A stretch of DNA of 64,000 nucleotides from Candidatus Methanomethylophilaceae archaeon (GTDB lineage Archaea; Thermoplasmatota; Thermoplasmata; Methanomassiliicoccales; Methanomethylophilaceae): contig JAFXUX010000043.1 in assembly GCA_017524805.1 (NCBI GenBank), forward strand, positions 1 through 64,000, given 5' to 3'. Shown in pieces: positions 27,556 to 64,000 of the stretch. Below the pieces are notes generated by a model, which had not been told where the DNA came from, ran no database searches, and saw only the letters and a program-made list of their open reading frames with translations. Each line of letters begins with the position of its first letter. Within the stretch, counting starts at the first letter, position 1. The position numbers were made by a program, and so were the translations under genes.

Positions 27556-27768
27556 ATGGCAGGAACGAGGCTCCCCGACCATTCCCACTGCAAATACTGC
27601 GGCGAGCCCATCGAATTCGGGAAGGAATACTGCGGGGAGATCTGCGAGGAATCCTTCAGAGAGAGGGAGCGCGGCGACAGGAGAAAGGAAATCGCGTTCT
27701 ATGCCGCGGCCGCCGTATCCGTGATCGTCATACTAGCCGCCGGGTTTTTGCTGCGATCTGGATGGTGA
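27556..27768 (+). CDS. Small membrane Zn-ribbon protein (DUF2116-like)
   Basis: A 70-residue protein. Cysteines in HCKYCGEPIEF and EYCGEICEESF form a four-cysteine zinc ribbon (residues about 12-32). A basic linker and one C-terminal membrane helix (about 47-66) follow. Family members are archaeal proteins of unknown role. Its stop overlaps the first Sel1-type gene by 7 bp, so the two are probably co-translated and it may anchor the array's products to the membrane (inference). Confidence 0.75.
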   Translation: MAGTRLPDHSHCKYCGEPIEFGKEYCGEICEESFRERERGDRRKEIAFYAAAAVSVIVILAAGFLLRSGW

Positions 27769-28979
27769 TTATCTTGGACAGAAGGGGCACCATCGAACCG
27801 CTGTGGCGGAAAGAAGCCGAATTCGACGTGCTGTGCGCATCCGGAGTCAGCGAAGCGGCGCTGATCCTGGGGGAATGCGGATACAAAGTCGGAAACCTGC
27901 TGGGCATCTCATTCTCGGATGGCGACATATCTTTCCCGGAAAAACGCTCGGAATGGATAGCCATTGATGTCAGATCGATATCCGGCGACTATTTCGAGAT
28001 TGACCGCGGAGGCATCAAAGAGCACGTTCCCTGCGGTAGGTTCGGATTCGAAGAGCCTGACGGTTCCGTGGGCAGGATCGGGTTCAACAGCATCCCCGGC
28101 CTGGACAACCGTCTGGACCGCATCTGCCAGGCGATAAAACGCTCTTACGGAGAGAAGGCTGTCGCCATTGACCTGAGAGATCCGCTTTACTCCATCGGCA
28201 AAGATGGCGATGTAAAATACCTCGGAGATCCCGACGAGGATGCCATAGAGTCGGCGAACGAATGCCTGCTCGGATTCGTGGACAGCCTGGGATGTTTCTG
28301 CGTGCGCACCCCAACCAACATATTGGGCTCCGACTCAGGGAGATATGCCCCCGAATTCCTCGGATACGCGGAATCCTGCCTGGACGCTATGGTAGCCGGA
28401 GGCGAAGACGCGCGCAGACGGATGATAGAGCTGGGAATCTCTATCGGAATCAGGATGGACTGCATGCGCGGGGAAAGCTACGCATTCGATCAGGACGCGA
28501 TAAGACGTCTCGACAGGCAGTGGAACGCAAGCAACAAAAAAGATGGCGTCGACGGATTGATGAGCTCAGCCATGGCCAGATACAGGAATGCCAGAAGCGC
28601 CGAAGGCAGAGGAGAGCTTGAGCGCCGCATCGGATCCATCTGGAAGGACAGGAAGGACGGCAAAGCCGATATTTCGAAGGCCGCGGAATGGATGAGGAAA
28701 TCCGCGGGTTCCGGCATCCAAAGCGCCGAAAGCGATCTTTTGGACATACTGTGGAGAGAAGGCTCCGACGATTCCCTGCTGGAGATGGTCGCCTTGGCGC
28801 GCAGGATGACCGAAAGAGGGAACGCGAAAGCCATGCTGATCCTCGGAAGGGCATACCGCGACGGGAAAGGTCTCCCCCAAAGCAAAAGCAACGCAATCAG
28901 ATGGTTGTCGAAAGCCTCCGAGAAAATCAAACAGGCCGAGATCGAGCTAAAAGAGCTTGAAGGAAAGGCTGGAGGATGA
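27762..28979 (+). CDS. Type A Sel1-repeat paralogue 1 (A1)
   Basis: A 405-residue protein, first of six tandem paralogues. Residues about 20-210 form the conserved N-terminal domain: EFDVLCASG, WIAIDVRSISGDYFEID, HVPC, YGEKAVAIDLRDPLYSI, DSLGCFCVRTPTNI. This is a diverged form of the DUF6270-like domain seen in type B neighbours, lacking their GxCxSRDxFG and YGGKTHY motifs. Residues about 285-400 carry Sel1-like repeats (GSIWKDRKDGKADISKAAEW, GRAYRDGKGLPQ). There is no signal peptide or membrane helix, so it is cytoplasmic. Function unknown. The start overlaps the Zn-ribbon gene; GTG at 27765 is an alternative. Confidence 0.75.
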   Translation: MVIILDRRGTIEPLWRKEAEFDVLCASGVSEAALILGECGYKVGNLLGISFSDGDISFPEKRSEWIAIDVRSISGDYFEIDRGGIKEHVPCGRFGFEEPDGSVGRIGFNSIPGLDNRLDRICQAIKRSYGEKAVAIDLRDPLYSIGKDGDVKYLGDPDEDAIESANECLLGFVDSLGCFCVRTPTNILGSDSGRYAPEFLGYAESCLDAMVAGGEDARRRMIELGISIGIRMDCMRGESYAFDQDAIRRLDRQWNASNKKDGVDGLMSSAMARYRNARSAEGRGELERRIGSIWKDRKDGKADISKAAEWMRKSAGSGIQSAESDLLDILWREGSDDSLLEMVALARRMTERGNAKAMLILGRAYRDGKGLPQSKSNAIRWLSKASEKIKQAEIELKELEGKAGG

Positions 28980-28983
28980 TATC

Positions 28984-30138
28984 GTGGACGAGGATTACGA
29001 ATATTACGGCGAGAAATCCCAGGCCAAAAAGAAAACGGCCTCGTTCGACATACTGGGCGTGTGCGTTTCCCGCGACATTTTCGGCCTGGCCAACGGCAAC
29101 GAGTATGATGTCGGGAAATACACGAGATTGTCTCTCCCATACTATTCTGACATGGAGAATGTGGACCCTGAACTCTGGGCGACGATGGACGATGTCAAGG
29201 GCGAGAGGGATTTCCACAAACGGCTGAAGCTGGACGACCTCAACATGAGATACGCCGACGAACTGAACGGCTCCGGGTCGGAATGGCTGCTCATAGATAC
29301 CAGATCCCTCACATTCGGATACCACGAAGCCAAATTCGGCGGAAAGACCCATTACTATACCGCCGAGAGCATTTCCGCCGATGAGATCCGCGCGGCGACG
29401 AGGAAAAAAGGCTTCGAGCCGGAGAGCATCCGCTTCGTCGAGACGGAAGACGTCCCCGGGATCGAAGGGATGATGGACGCATTCTGCGAGTTCGTCAGGG
29501 GAAGATATGGGAACAACATCATATTTATTGAGATGAGGGACGCTCTCTGGCACGTCGACAAAGAAGGCAAAGTGGGCTACATCCGCGATTATCCAGTGGA
29601 AAGAAGGCGCAGAATCACCGGAAAATACTGCGAAGCGCTGATGAAAAAGCTTGGCTGCCGCTGCATCCCCATGCCGTCGAACATCATCTGCGACTACCTC
29701 CATTTATGGGGCATGTCCAAAGGCCATTACATCCAGGAGTACTACGATTACGCGTACAGATGCCTGGACGCCATCGTGAAAGGGGCTCCTGACCTTGACC
29801 TTCTTTTGGAAAGAGAATTCCTGAAGGTATGCGCCGCCATGGATTCCATACGCTCCGGCAGGATGCTGTCCAGGAACAACACCGTAAGACGCGCGGAAAA
29901 CCATTGGAAAACCTCTGACGACGCCGACGCCTCCATCTCGAACGCCCAGCTCCTTATGGCGGAAGCCAACAACCCGCTGCTGGAGTCGGAGCTGGCCGGT
30001 ATAGTGGGCAGGATATGGCGCGACAGGACGGACGGAAAAGCCGACATGAGGAAGGCATCCATGTGGCTGAAGACGGCATCGGACGGGGGCATAGTATGGG
30101 CTTCGAAAGAGCTGGAGGAGCTTGGGGAAGGCCAATGA
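28984..30138 (+). CDS. Type B DUF6270-like/Sel1-repeat paralogue 1 (B1)
   Basis: A 384-residue protein with GTG start. GGAGG ends 8 nt before the GTG, while an in-frame TTG at 28957 lacks such a site. N-terminal domain (about 20-250): FDILGVCVSRDIFG, GKYTRLSLPYY, RLKLDDL, EWLLIDTRSL, KFGGKTHYY, MRDALWHVDKEGKVGYI, LGCRCIPMPSNIICD, and WGMSKGHYIQEYYDYAY. These match my recollection of DUF6270 (GSCVSRD at the start, HY..EYY at the end), a family thought to have an SGNH-like fold. The C-terminus has Sel1-like helices (GRIWRDRTDGKADMRKA). It follows A1 by 4 bp. Enzymatic activity is plausible but unproven. Confidence 0.75.
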   Translation: MDEDYEYYGEKSQAKKKTASFDILGVCVSRDIFGLANGNEYDVGKYTRLSLPYYSDMENVDPELWATMDDVKGERDFHKRLKLDDLNMRYADELNGSGSEWLLIDTRSLTFGYHEAKFGGKTHYYTAESISADEIRAATRKKGFEPESIRFVETEDVPGIEGMMDAFCEFVRGRYGNNIIFIEMRDALWHVDKEGKVGYIRDYPVERRRRITGKYCEALMKKLGCRCIPMPSNIICDYLHLWGMSKGHYIQEYYDYAYRCLDAIVKGAPDLDLLLEREFLKVCAAMDSIRSGRMLSRNNTVRRAENHWKTSDDADASISNAQLLMAEANNPLLESELAGIVGRIWRDRTDGKADMRKASMWLKTASDGGIVWASKELEELGEGQ

Positions 30139-30160
30139 AAGCCTGTCCAGGGGATAACGC

Positions 30161-30171
30161 TTTATTTTATG
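30161..30171 (+). promoter_or_regulatory. Possible internal promoter before A2
   Basis: TTTATTTTATG in the 81-nt gap between B1 and A2, about 49-59 nt before the A2 ATG. It is the only real gap in the six-gene array. Confidence 0.4.
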
Positions 30172-30219
30172 TAGTATACGATTCGGTGATGGCGATAGGC
30201 CGCATTCAGGAGGAGTGCT

Positions 30220-31401
30220 ATGGGCGGAAAGACTGACGGGAGAATCGTTTTCGATGTTCTGGGCGGGTGCCCCGACGGGGCGATGCTGGAGACGATGCTC
30301 ATCTGCGATTTTGGGATAGGGAACATCATAAGAGCCGAATTCGAAGCGGAGCCCATAACGCCGCCCGCGAACCCGTCGAGATGGCTGGCCATCGACATCA
30401 GATCCATCGCATGCGACCATTTCGAGGCGATCAGCGAGGACGAAGACGTGAGATACGTGCCGTGCACCGGATCGTCCGTGAGGGAGCTGAAGATGGGCGG
30501 AGCCAAATCGGTCCGCAGGATCGGGTTCGCCGACATCCCAGCCCTCGACGAATACGTCAAAGATCTCTCCTCAATCGCGCAAAAGTATGGGAAAAACGTC
30601 ATAGCCTTCGACCTGAGAGACCCGGCATGGATCTCCACCCCGGGAAGGAACGTGGTTCCCGCTGACGACCCGAATTCCGCGCGCAGGAATGAAGCCGAAG
30701 ACATGCTCTCCCTGATGCTGGTCGACTCCCTCGGATGCCATTGCATACGCACTCCCTCGAACATAGTCGGCCGCGGAAAAGACAGCGACGAGATGCCGCG
30801 CTACGGCGAGGGTTTCTACGCCTACGTCAAAGACTGCGTCAAAGTTATAGCGAGCAGAAAGCCGGAAGCCTCCAGAAAGCTCAGGACGCTGGGATTGGAG
30901 ATAGCCGACCACATGGACGCGGCCCGCAGAGCCCCGTTCCTGTCTTCGGTCTCATTCCTAGAGAGTATGGAAAAGGAAAAGGAAAGCATGGACGATTGGG
31001 ACGAGATCATCGGCATGCTCCGCAAAAAGATGGCCGTAGCCAAAAGCGAGATCCTCAAGGCAGAAATCGAGGGACGCATCGGAGCGGCATGGCGCGAGAG
31101 GGATGACGGCAAAGCGGACCTGAAGAAAGCCGTCCGCCTGCTCAGGAAATCCGCCGACTCCGGATCGATATGGGCGAGAAGGGAGCTGCTATCCGCGCTG
31201 TGGGCGGAAGGTTCCCCCAACTCCCTGCTGGAGATGGTGTCCAGAGCGTATAACTATTCCATAGAGGGGGACAAAGACGCGATGGAATTCCTCGGCTGGG
31301 CATACGAAGAGGGCGTGGGGCTGCCCAAGAACGCCGCTGAATCGAGGAGATGGCTCGCCAAAGCGGAACGGAAGACCGAAACCATATCGCTGTCGGAGTG
31401 A
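30220..31401 (+). CDS. Type A Sel1-repeat paralogue 2 (A2)
   Basis: A 393-residue protein with AGGAGG (30208-30213) 6 nt before its ATG. Same plan as A1: VFDVLGGCPDGAMLETML, WLAIDIRSIACDHFEAI, YVPC, YGKNVIAFDLRDPAWIS, DSLGCHCIRTPSNIVG, then Sel1-like repeats (GAAWRERDDGKADLKKAVRL, LGWAYEEGVGLPKNAAES). Cytoplasmic; no catalytic motif recognised. It precedes B2 by 5 bp, repeating the A-B pairing. Perhaps a non-catalytic partner of the following type B protein (inference). Confidence 0.75.
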   Translation: MGGKTDGRIVFDVLGGCPDGAMLETMLICDFGIGNIIRAEFEAEPITPPANPSRWLAIDIRSIACDHFEAISEDEDVRYVPCTGSSVRELKMGGAKSVRRIGFADIPALDEYVKDLSSIAQKYGKNVIAFDLRDPAWISTPGRNVVPADDPNSARRNEAEDMLSLMLVDSLGCHCIRTPSNIVGRGKDSDEMPRYGEGFYAYVKDCVKVIASRKPEASRKLRTLGLEIADHMDAARRAPFLSSVSFLESMEKEKESMDDWDEIIGMLRKKMAVAKSEILKAEIEGRIGAAWRERDDGKADLKKAVRLLRKSADSGSIWARRELLSALWAEGSPNSLLEMVSRAYNYSIEGDKDAMEFLGWAYEEGVGLPKNAAESRRWLAKAERKTETISLSE

Positions 31402-31406
31402 CTGCC

Positions 31407-33005
31407 ATGACCGATGACATCTCCAAAGGTCCGGCCGTGCCGGAAAGGAAACCGCCATTCGACGTGCTGGGCGTATGCATAGGGCGCGACGTGTTCGGAG
31501 TGGCCAACTGCAACGAATATGAGATAAGGAAATACACCCGCCCATCGCTCCCCAGCTTCGCGGACGACGAGCGCGTAAAAGAGAGCGAGCGCCTGGGAGA
31601 CGACGACGTCAAAGGCAAGACCAGATATCTCCGCCGCCGCAAGCTGGACGACCTCAACAGAACTTGCGAGGAAGGCCTCTGGGAATCCGGTTCCGAATGG
31701 CTTCTTCTGGAGATCAGAACTGTCTCCTACGAATACTGGGAGGCCAGATACGGCGGGAAAACGCACTATTTCCTAGGAAACACCACTACCGAGGAGGAGA
31801 TGCGCAAGGCCGTCGAAAAGAGGGGCTTGGAATTGGAGTCTCTCCGCAAAGTCAAGATCGATGACATCCCGGGGACATCGGAGATGGTGGATGCCGCCTG
31901 CGATTTCATAAGGAAGAGATACGGAAACAACGTGATCCTCCTCCAACAGAAGGAGGCCCTATGGCGCATGGACCGCTTCGGGAACGTGGCCCTGAACCGC
32001 ACCTTGGAAGCGGAATCGATGAACAGCACCATCGACAAGTTCACAAGGATGATCCTCAGAAACCTCGGCTGCCATTTCATCCGCATACCTTCCGACATCA
32101 TAAGCGATGCCTGGCAGAGGTGGGGAGATACGCCCGCCCACTACATCCAAGAATACTACGATTACGCTTATGCGTGCGTAGACGACATCGTTAGCGGGAT
32201 CCCCAATCTGGATAGGTCGCTGGAACGCAGGTTCATGGAATTCAGCGCCCAACTGAACGCGATACGCTCCGGGAAGATGCTGTCGAGAAAGAACGCCGTC
32301 AGCCGTGTGTCCGATCTTATGGAAAGAAGGGGCAACGCGGACCTCTGCATAAAAACAGCGACTCACCTCAGAAAAAGAGCCAACAGCCCTATGCTGGAAG
32401 CGGAGCTCGACGGCGCCATAGGAAAGCTGTGGCGCGACAGGGCTGATGGGAAGGCAGACCCGGAAAAGGCGATGGCTCTCATGAAATCGTCCGCGGAAAG
32501 CGGGATAGAATGGGCGCAGACCGAATATCTGGGCATGCTGAGAGCATCCGGGAACTATGAAGAGACTCTGGAGGCTGCCATAAGGTATGCTTCCCTAGGC
32601 AACGGCGAGGCCATCGGGTTCGTCGGGAGGGCCTACAAGAACGGCGAAGGCGTCGGCAAGGACAAGGCGATTGCTGAGAAGTGGCTGGAAGAGGCGTCCG
32701 TCAGGGACGTGAAATGGGCCGTCCTGGAGTACATGCAGCTCCTTTGGGAAGAGGACGCCGACATACTCGTCGAGAAAGCCCAGAGATTCGCGAACCACAG
32801 CGGAATCGCAATGGGATACCTCGGCAGGGCATACCGCTACGGCAAAGGCACGAAGAAAGACCTGGCCAAGGCGAGGGAATGCCTGTCTAAGGCAGCGGAG
32901 ATGAAAGTTCCTTGGGCCGAGAGAGAGCTGAGAAGTCTGGATGCGAATATGGCGAAAGCGCAGGAAACCAAGAGCAAACGCAGGGATGGAACGGGCGGGA
33001 AATGA
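31407..33005 (+). CDS. Type B DUF6270-like/Sel1-repeat paralogue 2 (B2)
   Basis: A 532-residue protein, the longest of the six. The ATG at 31407 is chosen; the frame is open upstream but inside A2. N-terminal domain as in B1: FDVLGVCIGRDVFG, RKYTRPSLPSF, RRKLDDLN, EWLLLEIRTVSYEYWEARYG, GGKTHYFLG, LGCHFIRIPSDIISDAWQRW, PAHYIQEYYDYAYACVDDIV. The C-terminal half (about 310-515) has more Sel1-like repeats than its paralogues, including GRAYKNGEGVGKDKAIAEKW and GRAYRYGKGTKKDLAKAREC. Its stop overlaps the A3 ATG (ATGA, 33002-33005). Confidence 0.75.
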   Translation: MTDDISKGPAVPERKPPFDVLGVCIGRDVFGVANCNEYEIRKYTRPSLPSFADDERVKESERLGDDDVKGKTRYLRRRKLDDLNRTCEEGLWESGSEWLLLEIRTVSYEYWEARYGGKTHYFLGNTTTEEEMRKAVEKRGLELESLRKVKIDDIPGTSEMVDAACDFIRKRYGNNVILLQQKEALWRMDRFGNVALNRTLEAESMNSTIDKFTRMILRNLGCHFIRIPSDIISDAWQRWGDTPAHYIQEYYDYAYACVDDIVSGIPNLDRSLERRFMEFSAQLNAIRSGKMLSRKNAVSRVSDLMERRGNADLCIKTATHLRKRANSPMLEAELDGAIGKLWRDRADGKADPEKAMALMKSSAESGIEWAQTEYLGMLRASGNYEETLEAAIRYASLGNGEAIGFVGRAYKNGEGVGKDKAIAEKWLEEASVRDVKWAVLEYMQLLWEEDADILVEKAQRFANHSGIAMGYLGRAYRYGKGTKKDLAKARECLSKAAEMKVPWAERELRSLDANMAKAQETKSKRRDGTGGK

Positions 33006-34225
33006 GCGCGAAGAAAGGCTTGCCGAAATAGATCTGGATTGACGTACTGGGGGGAGAGCCCGACGGGATAACCCTGGAAACGCTCTGCAGAAGCGGGTTC
33101 GGCGTCAAGAATTTCATAAAGGTCTCGTTGGACGGCGGAAGCAGGAAAGTCAAAGCCGATATCCCGAAGAAGAAATCAAAATGGATTGCGATCGACGTAA
33201 GGTCGCTTTCGTCCAATTGGTTCGCTGTCGACGAAGAACCTACCGTATACGTGCCTTGCGCCGGCGGATTCAGATCCGAGCTGAGGCAGAAGAATGACGA
33301 TAAACCGTTCCGCATAGCCGCGTTCTACGGCATGGAAGACTCCGATGCTTTCCTCGATTCCCTTGCCGATCTCATCGAAGAGCAGTACGGGAGCAATGCC
33401 GTGCTGCTCGACATCAGAGACGCATACTGGACCTAGACCATCGGGGCCAACGTCGTATATTATGATAACAGGGAGCAGACCCGCATGTCCCTGTCGGGGA
33501 ATGCGGTAGCCCTGAGATTGGAAGGCAGATTGGGATGCTTCTACGTCCGCACGCCGACGAACGTCATCGACTGCCCGATCAGAAGAAGCACATCGCATTA
33601 CCCTGCCGCCGTCTACGACTATATCAGCGCATGCCTGAGGGCCGTCATCGATGGTAAGGAGGACACAAGAGCCAAGATCAATGATCTGAGCATCGAAATC
33701 GCCAATAACATGGACATCCTCCGCAGCGACCCATACCTAAGGGCGCTGAACATACTGGGCGAAATAGATTCCATGGGCATGGACAATCCCGAAGAGGTTC
33801 TGGCGGTCATCGATGACTGGATGAAGATCGCGAGGAACGAAACGTTGGTATCAAGGCTGAAAGGATTCGAGGCGAGAGTTTGGCGCGACAGAGCCGATGG
33901 CAACGCCGATCTGGCGAAAGCTACGGGACTGATGCGCATATCCGCGGATTCAGGGACAAAATGGGCAAAAAATGAGCTTCTCGGCTTGCTCTGGGAGATC
34001 GATACCCCCGAATCGCTGCTGGAGATGGTCTCCCGCGCATTCGCCGATTCCCAAGAGGGGAGTTCGACGGCCAAAGGCTGCATCGGATAGGCCTACAGGG
34101 ATGGAAGGGGATTGCCCAAAAACGAGGCGAAATCCGCCGAATGGCTCCTCATGTGCAAAAAGGCGGAAGCGAAAGAGGCAAAGGTCAAATCGGAAGAAGA
34201 AGAGAGGGAGGAAGGGGAATCGTGA
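33002..34225 (+). CDS. Type A paralogue 3 (A3) with three in-frame TAG codons; candidate pyrrolysine protein
   Basis: One uninterrupted frame of 407 codons ending in TGA, the same length as A1 (405) and A2 (393), with TAG at codons 10 (33029-33031), 145 (33434-33436) and 363 (34088-34090). Between them every type A block is kept: WIDVLGGEPDGITLETL, WIAIDVRSLSSNWFAVD, YVPCAGG, YGSNAVLLDIRDAYW, GRLGCFYVRTPTNVID, ARVWRDRADGNADLAKA, then AYRDGRGLPKNEAKSAEWLL. No frameshift or deletion is seen. ATGA coupling to B2 and GTGA coupling to B3 are intact. Aligned paralogues have R, S and R/W at the three sites. No intact gene in this window ends in TAG. Either three pyrrolysines are inserted or this is a pseudogene. 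The ATG at 33485 gives only a fragment. Confidence 0.6.
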
Positions 34226-35568
34226 GCGGGACTGATGATACCCACCAGCATCCGGAGGCTCTGGCGACGATCGACATCATGGGAGTGTGCGTCAGCCGCG
34301 ATGTCTTCGGCCTCAAGGATGACCGCGAATTCCTGATCGGAAAATACGTAAGGCTGTCGATGCCCTATTTCCTGGACGAAGAAGAATTGGACGAGGACAA
34401 GCTTGCCACCGAGAGCATGCTGACCGGCAAGAAATTCATAAAGCGCTTGAAGCTGGATGAACTCAACAAAAGATACAGGTACCTCAAAACTTCCGGCTCG
34501 GATTGGGTTCTGATCGACCTCAGGGCGCTTTCGTACGGATTGTACGCGGTTAATTACGGAGGCGAGACCCACTACATCATGAAGGAAAGGCTGACCCAGC
34601 AGGAGATCTGCTCGGCCATAGAGAAAAGGGGCTATGCCGTGGAATCTATCGAAGAGATGGAATTCGAGGATGCCCCCAATCTCAATGAGATGATAGATGC
34701 CACGTGCGATTTCGTCAAAAAGAGATACGGCGACAAGATAATCCTCCTCGAAATCAGAGATGGCATCCTTAGGATGGACAGAGCTGGCAGGACTGCGCCC
34801 ATGCAGAGAGAGATAATCGAGAACAGGCGCAGGGAGATAGAAAGATACACGCTGTTATTCAAGGAAAAGCTGGGATGCCGCTGCATACGCATGCCCGCCG
34901 AGAACATCTGCGACGGCGCCCACAAGTGGGGCTACAACCCTGCGCATTTCGTCCAAGAGTACTACGACTATGCCTTCGCATGCATCGAGGACATAGTCAA
35001 AGGAGTCCCGGACCTCGACAGAGCGCTGGACAGAAGATACATGGAATTCTGCGCCCAATTGGACGCGATGCGGATCGGCGCCATGGTCTCCAGGAACAAT
35101 GGGGTCAAGCGCGTGAAAAGAAATCTCGTAACCAAGAAGTACGATGCGGCGCTCGAATTGGCATCGACGCTCAAAAACAAGGCCAACAACCCGGCGCTTG
35201 AATACGAACTGGAAGGCATGATCGGACGGATATGGTTCGAAAGGGAAGACGGCAATGCCGATGCGGAGGAAGCCGAGGCCCATATGAGAGAGGCGGCAAA
35301 GGGAGGCATATCCTGGTGCGAGACCTATCTCCTCCGCATCCTCATAGACAAGGGCGAATTGGATGAGATGGCCGAGAAAGCCGAGGAATACGCGATGAAA
35401 GGCAACTGCGAAGCCATGGGATACCTTGGAAGGGCTTACCGCGACGGGCTGGGCGTGGATAAAGACCTGGACAAAGCGAAAGAGTGGATGAAAAAATCTG
35501 CAATAAGAAGAGTCAAATGGGCCAAAAAAGAATATGCCAAGCTCATCGAGGCCGATCCAACTTCCTGA
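34222..35568 (+). CDS. Type B DUF6270-like/Sel1-repeat paralogue 3 (B3)
   Basis: A 448-residue protein with GTG start at 34222 overlapping the A3 stop (GTGA) and preceded by GGGAGG (34206-34211). The frame is open upstream to 34141 but inside A3. Domains: IDIMGVCVSRDVFGLKDDRE, GKYVRLSMPYF, RLKLDELN, DWVLIDLRALSYG, YGGETHYIM, EIRDGILRMDRAGR, LGCRCIRMPAENICDGAHKW and PAHFVQEYYDYAFACIEDIV, then Sel1-like repeats (GRIWFEREDGNADAEEAEAH, GRAYRDGLGVDKDLDKAKEW). Last gene of the array. Its 3' end overlaps the convergent folP gene by 26 bp. Confidence 0.75.
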   Translation: MSGTDDTHQHPEALATIDIMGVCVSRDVFGLKDDREFLIGKYVRLSMPYFLDEEELDEDKLATESMLTGKKFIKRLKLDELNKRYRYLKTSGSDWVLIDLRALSYGLYAVNYGGETHYIMKERLTQQEICSAIEKRGYAVESIEEMEFEDAPNLNEMIDATCDFVKKRYGDKIILLEIRDGILRMDRAGRTAPMQREIIENRRREIERYTLLFKEKLGCRCIRMPAENICDGAHKWGYNPAHFVQEYYDYAFACIEDIVKGVPDLDRALDRRYMEFCAQLDAMRIGAMVSRNNGVKRVKRNLVTKKYDAALELASTLKNKANNPALEYELEGMIGRIWFEREDGNADAEEAEAHMREAAKGGISWCETYLLRILIDKGELDEMAEKAEEYAMKGNCEAMGYLGRAYRDGLGVDKDLDKAKEWMKKSAIRRVKWAKKEYAKLIEADPTS

Positions 35569-36337
35569 CCGTCAGAGCGACATTATGCACCCTGACCATA
35601 TCCGCGCCCCATCTGACCGATTCCCATGCCGCCTCGGCGGAAGCCTCGTCGCGGTCCATGCCGGGGTAAGCCAGAGACAGAAACCTCTTCCTGGAAGAGG
35701 CCATCAGGACCGGATACCCGTCGGAGAAGAAGCGGGAGTTGCGGAGCACCATGAGATTCTGCTCCGGAGTCTTCCCGAAGCCTATCCCGGGATCCAAAGC
35801 TATCTTCTGCCTTGGGATTCCGGCCTCCAGAGCCGCCGCGGCGCGCTCCCTGAGGAAATCGCGTATCTCATCCATGTATCCGTCCCCCATCAGAGACGAA
35901 TGCTGATCTTTTGGGCCGCATGGGTTATGCATTATTATGGCGCATATGCCGGCCTCGGCGCAGAGCTCCGGCATCCCTGGGTCCCTGAGCCCGTTGACGT
36001 CGTTTATTATGTCCGCGCCCAGATCCGCCGCCTTCCTGGCCACCGCGGTTTTCATGGTGTCCACCGACACCGGCACGCTCAGAGACGGGACTATCTCCCT
36101 CAGAACGGGCGCCAAACGCGATATCTCAATCTCGGCCGAGATCGGAGACGAACCGGGACGGGTGGACTCCGCGCCCACGTCTATGATCCCTGCCCCTTGG
36201 TCCTCCATCTCGAAGGCATGGCGGGCGGCGGCGCGAGGATCCGACCAAACGCCGCCGTCGGAGAAAGAATCGGGCGTCACATTGAGGATGCCCATTACTA
36301 TAGGCCCTCCCCGGAGGGAGGCTCTTTGGAATTCCAT
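35543..36337 (-). CDS. folP: Dihydropteroate synthase-type protein
   Basis: A 264-residue TIM barrel with DHPS signatures: MGILNVTPDSFSDGG, DVGAESTRPGS, PVSVDTMKTAVARKAADLGA, INDVNGL, ALDPGIGFGKTPEQN and the C-terminal VRVHNV. In bacteria DHPS joins p-aminobenzoate to dihydropterin pyrophosphate. In methanogens the pterin is tetrahydromethanopterin or a folate, so the exact aryl substrate is uncertain. Last of a three-gene operon after larA and the Fe-S gene (2-bp gap). Confidence 0.85.
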   Translation of the reverse strand: MEFQRASLRGGPIVMGILNVTPDSFSDGGVWSDPRAAARHAFEMEDQGAGIIDVGAESTRPGSSPISAEIEISRLAPVLREIVPSLSVPVSVDTMKTAVARKAADLGADIINDVNGLRDPGMPELCAEAGICAIIMHNPCGPKDQHSSLMGDGYMDEIRDFLRERAAAALEAGIPRQKIALDPGIGFGKTPEQNLMVLRNSRFFSDGYPVLMASSRKRFLSLAYPGMDRDEASAEAAWESVRWGADMVRVHNVALTVRKLDRPR

Positions 36338-56020: not shown

Positions 56021-59000
56021 TCAAATCTCGGCGAGGACGCCGCCGGATCCGGAGAACGTCTTGCCGGCGAGGTTGCCCGCGGTCTGAGAAATCGCTTTTC
56101 CATCGGCGCCCACGAAGGAAATCCCGTAGAACGCGTTCTTCCCGAGAGCATTGAGACTCTCGGAGAATGATACGCTATTCAGCCCGGAACATCCGGAGAA
56201 GGCGCTGACACCGATGCTGCTGGCGGCGGAAAGGTCTGCCCCAGATAGAGATGAGCATCCCATGAAGGCGTATCCGCCGATGATATCCGCGGAGAGCGTG
56301 ACGCTCTTGAGAGAAGAGCATTTGGCGAAAGCCTTCAGGCCGATTTCCCTCACGGATCCGAGGTCTGCGCTCTTCAGAGCGGAGCAGCCATAGAACGCGC
56401 TGCTGCCTATCGAATCGACGGAATAAGATTCGCCGGCATAGGATATCCCATCGGGAATGGCTATGGCGATCGGGGCGCCGCTGTATCCGGTTACGGACAG
56501 CAAGTTGTCTTCCTCCGAGGTTATGGTGTATTGCAATCCGTCCAGCATGAAGGAGTGCCCGTCAGAAACCAGCTCAAGCTTCCCATCGGACCCTACGAAT
56601 CTCTGCCCGGCCAGATTCTCGGCTGTGGCTTTGATCGAGTTTCCTTTGGCATCTGCGAACGAGAGGCTGCGGAGGGCATCCTTCCCAATGGAAGAGAGGC
56701 TCTCAGAGAACGATGCATATCCGACCTTAGGGCATCCGTAGAACGCCCATCCGCCTATCGAATCGGCAGACAGCGACATCGATGCGAGATTGGCACAGTT
56801 GGCGAAGGCCTTCATCCCTATGGACGAGACGTACGGGAGATCGATCGACACCAAGCTTGAGCATCCGTAGAACGCTTTATCGCCCACGGAGACGACCCTC
56901 AGGGATTTCCCGTTGAATTTAACGGTCTCCGGCAGGGATAACGAAGCGGGGCTGCCCTCATAGCCTTTGACCGAGGCGGTCATGTCCACTGCAGAAAGGA
57001 CAGAGAAAATCAGCCCATCGGCCATGAACTCCGTCCCGTCTCCAAACTCGGAGAGCTTGCCCGCAGATCCGGAGAAGGTCCTGCCGGCAAGGTTGCCCGC
57101 GGTCTGGGCGATCGCTTTTCCGTCGGCGCCCACGAAAGTGATTCCGTAGAACGCATTCTTCCCAAGTGTTGTGAGGTTCTCAGAGAATGATACGCTCTTC
57201 AGCCCGGAACATCCGGAGAAGGCGCTGACGCCGATACTGCTGGCGGCGGAAAGATCTGCCCCGGAGAGGGATGAGCATCCCATGAAGGCGTATCCGCCGA
57301 TGGTCTCCGCAGAAAGCGTGACGCTCTTGAGCGAACTGCATGATGCGAATGCCTTCAATCCTATCTCTTTCGAAGAGCCCAGATCAGCGCTGATCAGGCT
57401 GGAGCATCCGTAAAACGCTTTATCGCCCACGGAAACGACGCTGAGGGCCATTCCGTTGAATTGGACGGCATCCGGCAGGGATATCGAAACAGGGCTGCCT
57501 TCGTAGCCGATAACCGAGGCGGTCATGTCCGCGGCGGAAATGACGGAGAAGATCAGACCGTCAGCCTTGAACTCCATCCCGTCTCCAAACTCGGAGAGCT
57601 TGCCCGCAGATCCGGAGAACGTCTTTCCGGCTAGGTTGCTGGCCGTAGGAGAAAGACTCTTACCGCTCGCGTCTGTGAAGGAAACCCCGTAGAACGCATT
57701 CTTCCCAAGTGTTGTGAGGTTCTCAGAGAATGATACGCTCTTCAGCCCGGAGCATCCGGAGAAGGCGCTGGCGCCGATTGATTTGGCATTGGGAAGACTG
57801 AGCTCCTCCAGGGAAGCGCATCCGAGGAACGCCCATCCGCCGATGCTCTCAGAGGATATGAAAGCCTTCCTCAGGCCCTTGCAATCGGCGAACGCCTTGG
57901 CATCTATGCTCACCCCTTCCTCGACCCAAAGGGATTCTATGGCAGATCCCATGAATGCTTTTGTAGCGATGCCTACCACATCGTAATCGACGCCGTTGTG
58001 AGACACGGTTGCGGGAATGACGACGTCTTTCTGAAGGCCTACTCCATATCCTGTGACTTCAACCGTCTGCCCGCTGGCAATGGTGTATTCCACCCCGCCG
58101 ATGGCGAACGCGGATTCGAGTTCTGTGGATATCGCGGCGAAGGAGACATCTTTCGCAGGCATGACGAATTTGCCGTTGCTCACGGCAACATCTGAAGTGG
58201 CCCAATCGCTCACGGAGTATCCGGCTTTCTGGTACGCAGGGCGCACGCTTACCGTCTCTCCGGGCAGATGGTTCTCAGTGAATACGGCGGCTCCATCGAG
58301 AGCATAGGTTACTGCGTACTCTTTGGACGCCCAAATCGCCACATACGCGATGTTCCCGGTCACGGTTGCTTTGACGGAAGGGGACCATCCGGCGAATTCG
58401 TATCCAGCTTCGCATGAGGGGACACCCACGAACGCTGGAGTCGCTTTGCCATACTCAACAGAATATGTCTGCGCCTGGAAAGTTCCGTGCTCTCCCGGCA
58501 GATATCTGACGCTGTATGTGCGCTTGATCGCATCGAACGTCGCGGCGTATGTGGCATCTTCGGTTGCGACGAGCACATCGGGAGTCCAGCCTGCGAATCT
58601 GTAGGAATATTCCGCGGTCGCTGCCCTTGTCGGAGAGGCACCGGAATAAGTCGGGACGCTGCCATAGGCCACGGTATCGGTTTCGAGGACAGAACCGTCC
58701 CAGTTCTTCCAGGTGATTGTGAAGGAAGTCTGCTGAGTGTACGCGTTGAATACCACATTCTTGGCAGGCATGACGAACTTTCCGCTGGATACGGTGGCAT
58801 CGGATGTGGTCCAGGGGGTCACATTGTAACCATCTTTCACGTATGGGGCGCGGACGCTCACGGTCTCGCCGATCTGGTGGGTCTCGGAGGCGATCCTCGA
58901 TCCGTCGACGCGATACGTGACAGTGTAGCTGTTAGCCGACCACTGCGCGGTATAGGCGGCGTTGCCTGTGACGATCTGGCCTACGGACGGGCTCCATCCT

Positions 59001-62000
59001 GCGAACGAGTAACCTTCCTCTCCCGCGGCTGTCCCTTCGAAAGCCGGAGTTTCCACGCCATATCTGACGGTGTAAGTCTGGCTCTCGAAAGTTCCGTGCT
59101 CTCCGGGCAGATATGTTATGGAATACATCACGTACGATGTGGTGTATTTCGCGGTGTACGTGGCATCCGCAGTCGCGGCAGATACCTGGGGGTCCCATCC
59201 GGCGAACGTGTAGCTGTACACGGAATTCGGAGCTCTGGCCGGCGCCGATCCGGGGTAAGACGGCATCTCGCCGAAAGCGACCGTAGTCGTAGCCAGGACC
59301 GCTCCGTTCCAGTTCTTCCAGGTTACCGTGAAGGAGGATTGCTGCGCATAAGCGTTGAATCTCACGCTCTTGGCCGGCATGACGAACATGCCGTTTGATA
59401 CTGAGACATCCGAAGAAGACCAAGCACTGACTTCGTACCCGTCTTTCACATACGGTGCGCGGACGCTCACGGTCTCGCCGACCCTGTGGGACTCGGAAGC
59501 CACTATGGTCCCATCCACAAGATAAGAAACGGAGTAGGACATCGGAGTCCAGAGGGCCACATACTCCGCGTTGCCGGTCACTATCTGGCCGACCGAAGGG
59601 GACCAACCGGCGAACGCGTATCCTGTCTCTCCCGTAGCGGTGCCTTCGAATGACGGAATTTCCATGCCGTATCTGCTGGTGTAAGTCTGGCTCTCGAAAG
59701 TTCCGTGCTCTCCGGGCAGATATGTTATGGAATACATCACGTACGATGCAGAGAATTTCGCAGTGTACGTGGCATCCGCCGCCGCAGAGGTTATCTCGGG
59801 ATCCCACCCAGCAAACATGTACGCATAGATTGAGTTGGACGCCCGGGTAGGCTCGGCTCCGGAATATGATGGCGTCTCGCCGGAAGCGACCGTAGTCGTG
59901 GCAAGAACCGCTCCGTTCCAGTTCTTCCAGGTTATAGTGAAAGAGGATTGCTGCGCATATGCGTTGAATCTCACGCTCTTGGCCGGCATGACGAACATGC
60001 CGTTGGACGCTGAGACATCCGACGTCGACCAGAAGCTGACTTCGTACCCATCTTTCACATATTGAGCGCGGACGCTCACGGTCTCGCCGAAGCGATGGGT
60101 CTCCGATGACACCAGAGATCCGTCGACATAATACGACACGGCGTAGTTGTTCGGCGTCCAGAGGGCGGTGTATGTGGCGTTGCCCGTGACAGTCTGCGAT
60201 ACCGAAGGCGACCATCCGGCAAAGCTGTATCCGGCCTCTCCCGCCGGAGTGCCGGAGAACGCCGGAGTCGCATTCCCATACTGGGCGGAATAGGTCTGCG
60301 AGGTGAACGTCCCGTGCTCTCCGGGCAGGTATTTGATGGTGTATCCCACGGTCGATGTGGTGAAGACCGCGGTGTATGTGGCGTTGCTGGATGCGACGGT
60401 TACGGTTGGGTTCCATCCCGAGAACGTGTAGCTCACGGAAGAGGATGATGCTCTCGTCGGAGTGGGTCCGCTGTATGAGGGCAAAACACCTGAAGCTACA
60501 GTATCCGTCGCGAGGGTCGTTCCGTCCCAGTTCTTCCAGGTTATGGTGTAATTCTGCGTTTTCGCCTTGACGGTGACGACGCAAGTCGCCGTGTAGCCTC
60601 CATCGTTCGTCTTCGCGGTTATCGTGGTTGTGCCGGCGGAAACCGCGGTCACGATGCCGTTGCTGACGGTGGCGATGGACGTATCAGCGCTGCTCCAGAT
60701 CACGCTGCGGTCGGAAGCGTTCTGGGGAAGGACAGTCGCATTCAAAGTCAGGGAGCTTCCCTGATCCATCGTCGCCGATGTCTTGTCAAGGGAGATCGAA
60801 GTGACATGGGTCTGCTGCCCGCCTACCGTTACTACGCAGGACGCGCTCAGGCTTCCGCATTTGACGGTTATCGTCGCGGTCCCGGCGGAAACCGCGGCCA
60901 CTATGCCGTTCTCGACGGTGGCCACGGATTTGTTGCTGCTGGTCCATTCCTCTGTCCTGGTCCCGCTGTTGGACGGGGTGAATTCGGTGTCGAGCGCGAT
61001 GGTCTCGCCGGGCTGCATTGACACGGACGTCCTGTCAAGAGACAGGCTCTGGGCCGGAGATCCATGCCTTATGCAGAACATCCTTCCGCTGTCGTTCACA
61101 TAGACGATGCTTCCGTCGCTGAGGAAGTGGGGCTGCTGCCCGGTGTACTGCTTGATGGTGACTTCCTTCAGCTCAGTGACCGTGAGCATGTTGGTGCTCA
61201 GATTGTGTTCGACGACGAATATGGATGACGAATTGTTGTACGGGACGATGTACGCGCAGGCTTTCCCGGCGTGCCCCGTGGATACGACCATGCTTCCGTG
61301 CCCATAGAAGTTGGTGTTGTCGACGGATGCCACCGGCTCCATGCTTTCCATTTCGTATACAGTGAATGTGCCGTCCGAGAACACATAACCGTATCCGCCG
61401 TTGACTATCAGCGCGGAGCTGAGGCCGTTGTATTCCCCGTTGGACCTGACCTTGAGGGTGGCGTGGCTGAATCTCCCGTCATCGCTGATCTTCACGGAGG
61501 CAACGTTGAAGATCTTCTCTTTGGCGGAGCCTCCCATCAGCTCGCCTTTGTAGGTCGTGAGAGTCGCGTATCCTTCGTTGAGGTCGATGTATCCCTTGTT
61601 GATGTAATTGCCTTTGAATTCTGGGATGTAGATCTTATCGATCATAGAGCCGTCGGAGATTTTGCTCGTCTGAAGGAAAACGGATCCGTCGCCGTCGAAT
61701 CCGGCGGTCATGAGGAATCCTTCGCCGAACAGCAGCTGGGTCCCGCCCTCGTAGGCGGTTATGAAAGATCCGGTGTTCTTCGTCCAGACAGGGCCCTGGA
61801 CGTTGTATGGGTCTGACGGATTCTTGTCGGCGGCTTCGAAACAGCAGGTCCCTGCGGAAGTCTGCACAAAGAAGTACCCGTCATGATAGAACGTCTTGGC
61901 GATGAGGCTGGCCGACAGGGCAAACACCTGGTTCAGATCCGTGTCGAAAACCTTTCCGGAATAGGAGTCCAGGACCAGGCCGTTTCCTACGGTCACATAC

Positions 62001-64000
62001 TCATAGTATCCGCTGAATCTGTCCGTTGTTGTGACGCTTTTCAGAATCCTTCCGTCATCGGCGTCTATCTTCAGCAGGATATTGTCGTTTTTGGCGAAGA
62101 TATAGTCTCCGATGACCGCGGGGGCGTAGGTCATGCCCTTGAACACCATCCCGCCGACGTTGCTGTTCCCTTCCCCGCAGATCCATGACTGGACGTAGCT
62201 GGAAGAGGTCGGGGTATCCGTATCCACCCTGTTGATGAACGAGCCGGTGGCGTAGTATTCTGATGAAGCGTGGGCAGCTGTATCACCCGACACGGTCACG
62301 AACATAGATGACGAGGGATAGTCGTAGGCCGTGCCGTTCACGGTCCACGAGACTATTTCGTATCCCATCCTCGCATCGAATACCAGCTCGACGAGGGATC
62401 CGGCGGTAACATAGGAGCCGGATGTCAGTTTGGTCGGAGAGCCGTTGACATATGCGTATGCAGTCCCGTTTTCAGCGGAAAGGGTAAGCTTGCATTTCGC
62501 CGCCGATTGGGGGGCCCATTTGGCGTATGCTGTCTCGTTCTTGGTAACCGGCCCGAACCCATAGAGCTCGGTAAGGCTTGAGGACGAGTACCATCCTAAG
62601 AATGTGTAACCGCTCTTCGTCGGATCCGCTGGCATAGTAGCCGAAGCCCCGGAAAGAACGGTTTGGCTCGCGACCGAAGAGCCTCCGTTGGAGGAGAAGG
62701 TCACGGTGTACGACGATTTCGCCGTAATCCCGGACACGGAGATGGAGCTGTTGCGGTAAATCACGAACGAATACACGCTGTATTCGGACGTCTGATAGTC
62801 GGGAGAGATCGAAGAGCCGTTGACCTTTACGGAGAACGAGGATGATTTCTGGTATCCCGGGAGGCAGCGGACCTCGAAGATGACTTTCGAACCGTACGGG
62901 ACATTTTTGCTCTGGGACACCTCCAGCGAATATCCGGTCCCGGCGGAGAAACTCACATCATAAGTGTTCAGCTTGACGCCGGTGATCGAAACCGAAGTCC
63001 CATCGGCCACATTGCTGATGACGTACATGCCAGAAACGTCATACGATCCCATTTTGGTCCCCTGGGATGCGGGAGAGATGGTTTTTCCTCCTGAGGTGAC
63101 AGCAATCTTGGATTCATCGTATCCCTGCGAGAATGACACTCCGAAAGCCATGGAATTTCCGTATGTCTTGATGGAAATCCCCGTGTGCTTGGCGTCATTG
63201 GATTCGAAGAGGACGCGTCCGGAAGAGGTGTCTGCATAGTAGCCGGAGAGCGGAAGGCTGCCGCATTTTTCCTCGTCATAATTTCCAGGGGCGAAGTACG
63301 CGCGTGCAGTGCCGATGTCCATGGCGTACATATCAAGCGTTGGGCTGCCGCAGATCACGACGGTTTTGAGCTTCTTCGCCGTCATGAGCGCGTAAGATCC
63401 TATCTTGTCTACCGAAGACGGGATAGTTATGTCCGCCGCCGTGGAGAGGGTAGCCATCGATTTTGCGGCGATGGTTTCCGTCCCCTCCTTTATCGATATG
63501 GAAGCCGAGGAAGGCAGGACGTACAGAAGCTCGGTGCCATAATAGACAGCTTTGTTTGCGTACGAAATCTTGCTGTTGGCGGAGGTCAGGCTCTTCCCGG
63601 AACCGACGGAATCAGCGAGCGCCTTGTTGGAGAATCCCACGCAATCCGATCCGGCCTGGATTCCTGAGGAACTCGCTTCCACGATAATCTTTCCGGAACT
63701 TCCGTTGGCGGTTTTCACTTCGACGTATTTGTATCCCTGAGAACTGTCGGTCTTCAAGAGATTTTTCACAGGGCTGTCGGCAAAAATAGAGGAGTCTTCG
63801 AACGGTATGGACGTATGTACGATGATATTCGTCAGTTTATCGCAATTGCCAAAAGAATTTCCGCCGGCGGCTTTCAGCATCCCATAGGTCTCTATTTCGG
63901 TCAGCGCTTTACAGTAATTGAAACAATTTGGGGATATGTATGTGTAAGAGCCTTCAAAAATGACTTTGGCAAGAGATTCACAATAATAGAATGCATTACT
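56021..64000 (-). CDS. Giant BspA/InlB-repeat/Big_2 surface protein, 5' end outside the window
   Basis: The frame is open to the right edge and gives 2659 residues; the start and any signal peptide are missing. N-terminal BspA-type LRR region (64.0 to about 63.3 kb, SNAFYYCESLAKVIFEG). An InlB/Flg_new-like module follows near 62.6-62.5 kb (VTFSSNGGSSVASQTVLSGA). Next come a PQQ-like propeller (about 62.2-61.1 kb), two Ig-like Big_2 domains (about 61.05-60.57 kb, SLSLDRTSVSMQPGETIALD) and four 203-residue units (about 60.55-58.1 kb). The C-terminal part has about four blocks of BspA LRRs, each led by a beta strand module (DGLIFSVLSAVDMTASVKGY). The protein ends FSGSGGVLAEI without a membrane helix. 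An extracellular adhesin or glycan-binding role is inferred. Confidence 0.85.
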   Translation of the reverse strand, partial: SNAFYYCESLAKVIFEGSYTYISPNCFNYCKALTEIETYGMLKAAGGNSFGNCDKLTNIIVHTSIPFEDSSIFADSPVKNLLKTDSSQGYKYVEVKTANGSSGKIIVEASSSGIQAGSDCVGFSNKALADSVGSGKSLTSANSKISYANKAVYYGTELLYVLPSSASISIKEGTETIAAKSMATLSTAADITIPSSVDKIGSYALMTAKKLKTVVICGSPTLDMYAMDIGTARAYFAPGNYDEEKCGSLPLSGYYADTSSGRVLFESNDAKHTGISIKTYGNSMAFGVSFSQGYDESKIAVTSGGKTISPASQGTKMGSYDVSGMYVISNVADGTSVSITGVKLNTYDVSFSAGTGYSLEVSQSKNVPYGSKVIFEVRCLPGYQKSSSFSVKVNGSSISPDYQTSEYSVYSFVIYRNSSISVSGITAKSSYTVTFSSNGGSSVASQTVLSGASATMPADPTKSGYTFLGWYSSSSLTELYGFGPVTKNETAYAKWAPQSAAKCKLTLSAENGTAYAYVNGSPTKLTSGSYVTAGSLVELVFDARMGYEIVSWTVNGTAYDYPSSSMFVTVSGDTAAHASSEYYATGSFINRVDTDTPTSSSYVQSWICGEGNSNVGGMVFKGMTYAPAVIGDYIFAKNDNILLKIDADDGRILKSVTTTDRFSGYYEYVTVGNGLVLDSYSGKVFDTDLNQVFALSASLIAKTFYHDGYFFVQTSAGTCCFEAADKNPSDPYNVQGPVWTKNTGSFITAYEGGTQLLFGEGFLMTAGFDGDGSVFLQTSKISDGSMIDKIYIPEFKGNYINKGYIDLNEGYATLTTYKGELMGGSAKEKIFNVASVKISDDGRFSHATLKVRSNGEYNGLSSALIVNGGYGYVFSDGTFTVYEMESMEPVASVDNTNFYGHGSMVVSTGHAGKACAYIVPYNNSSSIFVVEHNLSTNMLTVTELKEVTIKQYTGQQPHFLSDGSIVYVNDSGRMFCIRHGSPAQSLSLDRTSVSMQPGETIALDTEFTPSNSGTRTEEWTSSNKSVATVENGIVAAVSAGTATITVKCGSLSASCVVTVGGQQTHVTSISLDKTSATMDQGSSLTLNATVLPQNASDRSVIWSSADTSIATVSNGIVTAVSAGTTTITAKTNDGGYTATCVVTVKAKTQNYTITWKNWDGTTLATDTVASGVLPSYSGPTPTRASSSSVSYTFSGWNPTVTVASSNATYTAVFTTSTVGYTIKYLPGEHGTFTSQTYSAQYGNATPAFSGTPAGEAGYSFAGWSPSVSQTVTGNATYTALWTPNNYAVSYYVDGSLVSSETHRFGETVSVRAQYVKDGYEVSFWSTSDVSASNGMFVMPAKSVRFNAYAQQSSFTITWKNWNGAVLATTTVASGETPSYSGAEPTRASNSIYAYMFAGWDPEITSAAADATYTAKFSASYVMYSITYLPGEHGTFESQTYTSRYGMEIPSFEGTATGETGYAFAGWSPSVGQIVTGNAEYVALWTPMSYSVSYLVDGTIVASESHRVGETVSVRAPYVKDGYEVSAWSSSDVSVSNGMFVMPAKSVRFNAYAQQSSFTVTWKNWNGAVLATTTVAFGEMPSYPGSAPARAPNSVYSYTFAGWDPQVSAATADATYTAKYTTSYVMYSITYLPGEHGTFESQTYTVRYGVETPAFEGTAAGEEGYSFAGWSPSVGQIVTGNAAYTAQWSANSYTVTYRVDGSRIASETHQIGETVSVRAPYVKDGYNVTPWTTSDATVSSGKFVMPAKNVVFNAYTQQTSFTITWKNWDGSVLETDTVAYGSVPTYSGASPTRAATAEYSYRFAGWTPDVLVATEDATYAATFDAIKRTYSVRYLPGEHGTFQAQTYSVEYGKATPAFVGVPSCEAGYEFAGWSPSVKATVTGNIAYVAIWASKEYAVTYALDGAAVFTENHLPGETVSVRPAYQKAGYSVSDWATSDVAVSNGKFVMPAKDVSFAAISTELESAFAIGGVEYTIASGQTVEVTGYGVGLQKDVVIPATVSHNGVDYDVVGIATKAFMGSAIESLWVEEGVSIDAKAFADCKGLRKAFISSESIGGWAFLGCASLEELSLPNAKSIGASAFSGCSGLKSVSFSENLTTLGKNAFYGVSFTDASGKSLSPTASNLAGKTFSGSAGKLSEFGDGMEFKADGLIFSVISAADMTASVIGYEGSPVSISLPDAVQFNGMALSVVSVGDKAFYGCSSLISADLGSSKEIGLKAFASCSSLKSVTLSAETIGGYAFMGCSSLSGADLSAASSIGVSAFSGCSGLKSVSFSENLTTLGKNAFYGITFVGADGKAIAQTAGNLAGRTFSGSAGKLSEFGDGTEFMADGLIFSVLSAVDMTASVKGYEGSPASLSLPETVKFNGKSLRVVSVGDKAFYGCSSLVSIDLPYVSSIGMKAFANCANLASMSLSADSIGGWAFYGCPKVGYASFSESLSSIGKDALRSLSFADAKGNSIKATAENLAGQRFVGSDGKLELVSDGHSFMLDGLQYTITSEEDNLLSVTGYSGAPIAIAIPDGISYAGESYSVDSIGSSAFYGCSALKSADLGSVREIGLKAFAKCSSLKSVTLSADIIGGYAFMGCSSLSGADLSAASSIGVSAFSGCSGLNSVSFSESLNALGKNAFYGISFVGADGKAISQTAGNLAGKTFSGSGGVLAEI
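56045..57420. repeat. Long direct repeats in the LRR part of the giant gene
   Basis: Segments of about 350 bp at 56045-56400 and 57065-57420 are highly alike with an offset of 1020 bp (340 codons); for example GAGAATGATACGCT at 56163 and 57183. A shorter third copy begins near 57700. They encode near-identical LRR blocks. Confidence 0.8.
58090..60560. repeat. Four tandem 609-bp units in the giant gene
   Basis: The WKNW codons recur at 60527, 59918, 59309 and 58700, a spacing of exactly 609 bp three times (203 residues). Each unit has three InlB-like modules starting TWKNW(D/N)G, (I/V)(K/R)YLPGEHGTF and a YxVDGxxxxSE(T/S)H-like segment. Units 2 and 3 are closest to each other. The exact period suggests tandem duplication. 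Confidence 0.9.

Follow-up and report, generated by a model that had tools for sequence, protein, structure and literature searches.

Organization of the array

The region analyzed here lies within a window of 64,000 nucleotides (nt) of contig JAFXUX010000043.1 from a Candidatus Methanomethylophilaceae archaeon. It consists of six genes of two types, termed A and B, that alternate as A1-B1-A2-B2-A3-B3 over positions 27762-35568 of the plus strand. An earlier reading of the DNA, made from the letters alone (the sequence-only reading), had described six strictly alternating homologues on one strand, with each A separated from the B after it by 4 nt or 5 nt or, in the third pair, overlapping it by 4 bp; re-derived coordinates bear out the alternation and reproduce these spacings exactly. 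A1 (27762..28979; 405 amino acids) combines a degenerate DUF6270-like domain with Sel1 repeats, and is followed 4 nt further on by B1 (28984..30138), a DUF6270 protein with a GTG start. After an 81-bp interval (30139..30219), the sole real gap within the array, come A2 (30220..31401; 393 amino acids), of the same composition as A1, and, 5 nt past its end, B2 (31407..33005; 532 amino acids), in which DUF6270 is fused to Sel1. A3 (33002..34225; 407 amino acids with TAG read as an amino acid) is again a degenerate DUF6270-like protein and overlaps B2 by ATGA, whereas B3 (34222..35568; 448 amino acids; DUF6270 and Sel1) begins with a GTG that overlaps the A3 stop by 4 bp.

The B1-A2 gap contains the AT-rich stretch CTTTATTTTATG, and its counterpart in the sister species 'Methanomassiliicoccaceae archaeon Tb.RUG.172' (genome G012) is also AT-rich and carries TTTTTTTATATC. 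Judged by eye from the AT-rich stretch, a second promoter may possibly lie here; a scan for sigma-70 promoters, a model ill-suited to archaea, produced matches at chance level only. The GC fraction of the array (0.555, as compared to 0.567 in the flanks) gives no sign of a foreign origin.

B proteins and their degenerate A paralogues

All three B proteins are members of the Pfam family DUF6270 (PF19786). B1, B2, and B3 score 44.4, 41.3, and 46.3 bits (E 2.4e-11, 2.1e-10, and 6.3e-12) against a curated cut-off of 27.5 bits, and the match spans the whole model (positions 1-222 of 222). The motifs that had been assigned to the B type, namely, GxCxxRDxFG, (F/Y)GGxTHY, and H(Y/F)xQEYYDYA, are found in B1-B3 and are absent from A1-A3. 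Nine residues are invariant in the family (G21, C23, R26, D27, D231, W236, G237, H242, and E246 in B3 numbering), and alignment showed all nine to be common to the B proteins, B1 included, and two DUF6270 proteins of Oerskovia. The B proteins, which keep these residues, are the likely enzymes. No function of DUF6270 has been described in the literature searched. Sel1 repeats (PF08238) were detected above the cut-off in A1, A2, B2 (E 7.9e-13), and B3, and B1 and A3 gave no Sel1 match in Pfam at E <= 1; the Sel1 label earlier attached to both paralogue types is thus matched by Pfam in four of the six proteins.

AlphaFold2 models were made on full-length B3 and A2, with a mean predicted local distance difference test score (pLDDT) of 86 and 84, respectively. 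Searches of PDB and viral folds with the full B3 model, and of PDB folds with the A2 model, returned Sel1/TPR repeats only, and a PDB profile search with the N-terminal domain gave matches at chance level. Homology of this domain to WcbI or SGNH proteins was not shown by the PDB profile search or by a PF18588 search run without a positive control.

The A proteins are homologous to the B proteins in their N-terminal domains, as had been proposed: when profiles of the two domain types were compared with hhalign, the probability was 99.9% and the E value 8.6e-31 over 233 columns, and BLASTP of A2 against B3 gave an E value of 2e-33. In the predicted N-terminal domains of A2 and B3, strands and helices follow one another in the same order, except that A is without the helices found at positions 48-89 of B3. 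A1-A3 give no match to PF19786, and the five A N-terminal domains known match no Pfam family at E <= 10; the comparison of both domain types with DUF6270 that the sequence-only reading had suggested thus places B above the cut-off and leaves A without a match. The family invariants GxCxxRD, D231, WG, H242, and E246 are missing from A, a loss that fits the earlier suggestion that A may be non-catalytic. A different set of residues does not vary among the five A proteins: C82 (in YVPC), D131-R133-D134 (DxRD), and R177-T178-P179-N181 (RTPxN). Of these motifs, VPC and the complete DxRD lack conservation in B.

Insertion site and distribution

The array sits exactly between two conserved genes. On its left is a zinc-ribbon gene, Z (27556..27768, plus strand), whose 70-amino-acid product carries a DUF2116 domain (PF09889, E 3.5e-12) and one membrane helix, and whose stop is overlapped by the A1 start. 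On its right, tail-to-tail with B3, is a gene named from its sequence as dihydropteroate synthase (35543..36337, minus strand). The survey of the distribution covered 31 genomes at the level of the genus, 102 at that of the family, and 400 at that of the class. In 24 of the 31 genus genomes, Z and the dihydropteroate synthase gene are direct tail-to-tail neighbors, about -10 to +35 bp apart. Because these neighbors occur without the array, Z does not lead the unit, as had been thought, but is a conserved host gene of the insertion site and stands outside the array. In Tb.RUG.172 (L050:6253-7143), the zinc-ribbon frame continues into the A1 gene rather than stopping ahead of it.

Among all the genomes surveyed, A-type proteins are confined to the present genome (G000) and to Tb.RUG.172, in which the same site holds Z-A1-B1-A2-B2, that is, two pairs with tight A-to-B coupling. 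The survey of gene neighborhoods for A-B pairs elsewhere found them once more, in this sister species. DUF6270 genes proper were detected in 11 of the 102 family genomes; apart from the two species, those looked at did not lie in such arrays. Judged from these gene orders, it was in the stem of the two-species clade that the array either was inserted or originated at this site, between the two conserved genes. Transfer by viruses was considered and set aside, as no relative was found in viral contigs and none in phage records. The array is real, unusual, and restricted to two sister species, and is a variant within the known DUF6270/Sel1 family.

Phylogeny and selection

The tree placed A in one clade (support 100/100) and the array B proteins in another (99/99), in agreement with the proposed separation of the two types. 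A1, B1, A2, and B2 each pair with their own orthologue in Tb.RUG.172 (100/99), and therefore the three-fold split is older than the two species; the absence of the third pair from Tb.RUG.172 is most readily explained by loss. A3 groups with A2 (89/75), but B3 groups with B1 (94/94). Copied units should give A and B the same branching order, and so the tree does not show that the array was amplified as A-B units; approximately unbiased (AU) tests settle the matter neither way, as the alternatives B2+B3 (p 0.135) and A1+A3 (p 0.143) were not rejected.

The ratio of nonsynonymous to synonymous substitution rates (dN/dS), determined by NG86 between orthologues of the two species, was 0.24 for A1, 0.21 for A2, 0.16 for B1, and 0.21 for B2. 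The A genes are under purifying selection. They change faster than the B genes, with orthologue identities of 66% (A1) and 67% (A2) as compared to 78% (B1) and 73% (B2), and far more quickly than the genes on either side of the array, which are about 90% identical. Given a dN/dS of about 0.2, the A proteins can be considered maintained, and they are probably catalytically dead paralogues.

A3 and its three TAG codons

A3 forms an uninterrupted frame only when TAG is translated, as it contains three in-frame TAG codons, which the sequence-only reading had missed: codon 10 (33029..33031), where the other A proteins have K, R, or E; codon 145 (33434..33436), where they have S, A, I, or M; and codon 363 (34088..34090), inside a Sel1-like repeat, where they have W or R. 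A start downstream of codon 10 was rejected, since the next candidate, a TTG at 33128, would remove the first strand and helix. In this genome, a tRNA-Pyl(CUA) was identified by ARAGORN, PylS by TIGR02367 (252.9 bits), and a PylC-like domain beside pylS with an E value of 3.2e-5, which is under the family cut-off; pylB and pylD were recognized by eye in the pyl cluster, and there are two mtmB genes with one TAG apiece.

Gene statistics were gathered with a home-made gene caller over about 485 kb, or one-fourth of the genome. The 339 genes called end in TGA (279), TAA (45), or TAG (15), and 12 of the 15 TAG-ended genes continue in frame with coding-like sequence, including mtmB, a LicD-Sel1 gene, and an AIPR gene. 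TAG is hence mostly a sense codon in this genome. A related solo DUF6270-Sel1 gene (L011:5507-7723, contig 33 of G000, minus strand) has a TAG at codon 487 that is present at the same place in Tb.RUG.172 (L063), with 76% identity and a low dN past the TAG; standard gene calling splits this gene in two. Among hits of the DUF6270/Sel1 family across the genus, all 11 of the 11 in-frame stops are TAG, for which the chance is about 1e-4. Because the genome encodes tRNA-Pyl, PylS, and a PylC-like domain and uses TAG mostly as a sense codon, a protein with three pyrrolysines is the best reading of A3. Its TAG sites fall on variable positions, and this suggests tolerated mutations rather than a catalytic pyrrolysine.

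This reading fits, by analogy, what Borrel et al. report for 'Ca. Methanomethylophilus alvus', in which 1.6% of the stops are TAG and 16 further proteins, including a Sel1 protein (AGI86303.1), putatively contain pyrrolysine; they argue that TAG mutations are tolerated in that organism (PMC4153887). Like the proteins of that set, A3 is not a methyltransferase and has in-frame TAG in a genome in which TAG is rarely a stop; it differs in carrying three TAGs in one gene and in belonging to an operon-like array. A3 adds a three-TAG gene beyond the methylamine methyltransferases, and, together with the TAG conserved between species in the related solo gene, it bears on how freely gut methanogens use pyrrolysine as they would any ordinary amino acid.

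Proposed function and alternative explanations

The bacterial DUF6270 genes found in this analysis lie among genes for glycosyltransferases, WecB/WecC, nucleotide-sugar dehydrogenase, ABC exporters, and capsule synthesis, or near polysaccharide genes. Given this location in or near surface-polysaccharide clusters, the B proteins may by analogy be enzymes of surface-glycan modification. In view of the apparent cotranslation of A and B in both species, their joint restriction to a single locus, and the purifying selection on A, the likeliest reading of their relation is a complex in which B is active and A inactive. In the mechanism that we propose, A and B, made from adjoining and often overlapping frames, would most likely bind each other; A would shape, activate, or target its own B; the Sel1 repeats would serve as scaffold; B would carry out a catalytic step in the modification of a surface polysaccharide; and A3 would be made by decoding its three TAG codons as pyrrolysine. 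In this explanation we infer the A-B binding, the glycan role, the chemistry, and the actual production of the A3 protein. As a whole, that is, a lineage-specific array of active B and inactive A in complex, with a glycan role and a pyrrolysine-containing A3, it is our best explanation, but it is put forward tentatively, with somewhat less than even confidence.

A number of observations weigh against it. The step from B2 to A3, an ATGA overlap at 33002-33005, is as tight as any step from A to B. Elsewhere, DUF6270-Sel1 genes as a rule stand alone, with no A, and, as far as these genes indicate, B is not generally dependent on A. The conserved features of A itself (VPC and DxRD) could mean a role apart from B, and, given the discordant grouping of the third pair, the units that duplicated may not have been the pairs. 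The array itself lies outside any glycan cluster, and A3, as a lone case with its three TAGs, might still be in decay.

The alternative that survives best is that A acts alone, for instance as a binding or decoy protein that uses the old substrate pocket, and is co-expressed with B for dosage without forming a complex. The faster evolution of A relative to its neighboring B would be in line with this, as would the predicted lack of the 48-89 helices, the solo B genes that need no A, and the existence of another degenerate DUF6270-like Sel1 gene elsewhere in the genome with no listed B neighbor. However, type A is found only beside B, in both species and in overlapping or near-overlapping frames, and we regard an independent role of A as rather unlikely.

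A decaying A3 would be a pseudogene in a third pair on its way out, with its TAGs being ordinary nonsense mutations. The third pair was lost from, or was never in, Tb.RUG.172; A1, A2, and B1-B3 have no in-frame TAG; and the chance that three stops alone are all TAG is 0.09. However, the 1.2 kb of A3 contain no TAA, TGA, or frameshift, and codon usage is normal ahead of, between, and past the TAGs, with a coding score of 0.25 per codon that equals that of A1 (genome mean, 0.27). Furthermore, of the columns that do not vary among the other four A proteins, A3 keeps 69%, as compared to 25% of the variable columns, and the prevailing sense use of TAG and its conservation in the solo gene also speak against decay, which we therefore hold to be improbable. 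Marginally less probable still is a neofunctionalized A with a new active site built on the YVPC, DxRD, and RTPxN residues: these are invariant in A, with VPC and the full DxRD not conserved in B, but invariance among five sequences is weak evidence, and the A N-terminal domains match no Pfam family even at an E value of 10.

If A3 is indeed a pyrrolysine protein, its first TAG might act as a gate, with ribosomes passing codon 10 only when pyrrolysyl-tRNA is available, as in growth on methylamines, and the synthesis of A3 and, via the GTGA overlap, of part of B3 being limited to methylamine conditions. The two parts of this idea taken together are a long shot; if true, the gate would tie a surface-modification pair to the methylamine supply.

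Likeness to known systems

The B proteins resemble other DUF6270 members in their whole-model match and in the invariant residues kept, and a fusion to Sel1 also occurs in the solo archaeal DUF6270 genes of the same methanogen family. Elsewhere DUF6270 proteins are encoded by single genes, whereas in this array each of three copies is preceded by a degenerate paralogue that the family model no longer matches. In the way it works, B may be compared to WcbI of capsule biosynthesis, in which Cys14 and His201 hold acetyl-CoA and for which a partner protein has been postulated (PMC4104973). Both have a Cys right after strand 1, a C-terminal His, and a polysaccharide context, but no sequence match was found, and neither an array nor a paralogue partner is described for WcbI. 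Another example is the deoxyhypusine synthase of trypanosomatids, which is activated by a catalytically dead paralogue (PMC3663545). The proteins are unrelated to A and B, so that the likeness is one of working principle only, and the partnership has been shown there, whereas here it is proposed. With intact and degenerate paralogues in two to three repeats, in two species and at one site, the array offers a natural set for understanding how an enzyme family gains a dead partner.

Further genes with in-frame TAG or Sel1 repeats

Several other genes share features with the array. A LicD-family gene fused to Sel1 (L079:5682-7730, minus strand), a candidate surface-glycan enzyme on a Sel1 scaffold, has an in-frame TAG at codon 227, and an AIPR (abortive infection) gene (L083:10333-12357, minus strand) has one close to its end. 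A large Sel1 protein (L013:2514-5069), whose N-terminal part has no Pfam match, has a TAG at codon 641. The N-terminal part of the product of a Sel1 gene at L074:2942-4201 (minus strand) resembles a degenerate DUF6270 domain (GSSIGKD), and beside this gene lies one that encodes a large repeat protein and contains an in-frame TAG. Finally, the window itself contains an open reading frame of 2619 amino acids at 56021-63880 on the minus strand.

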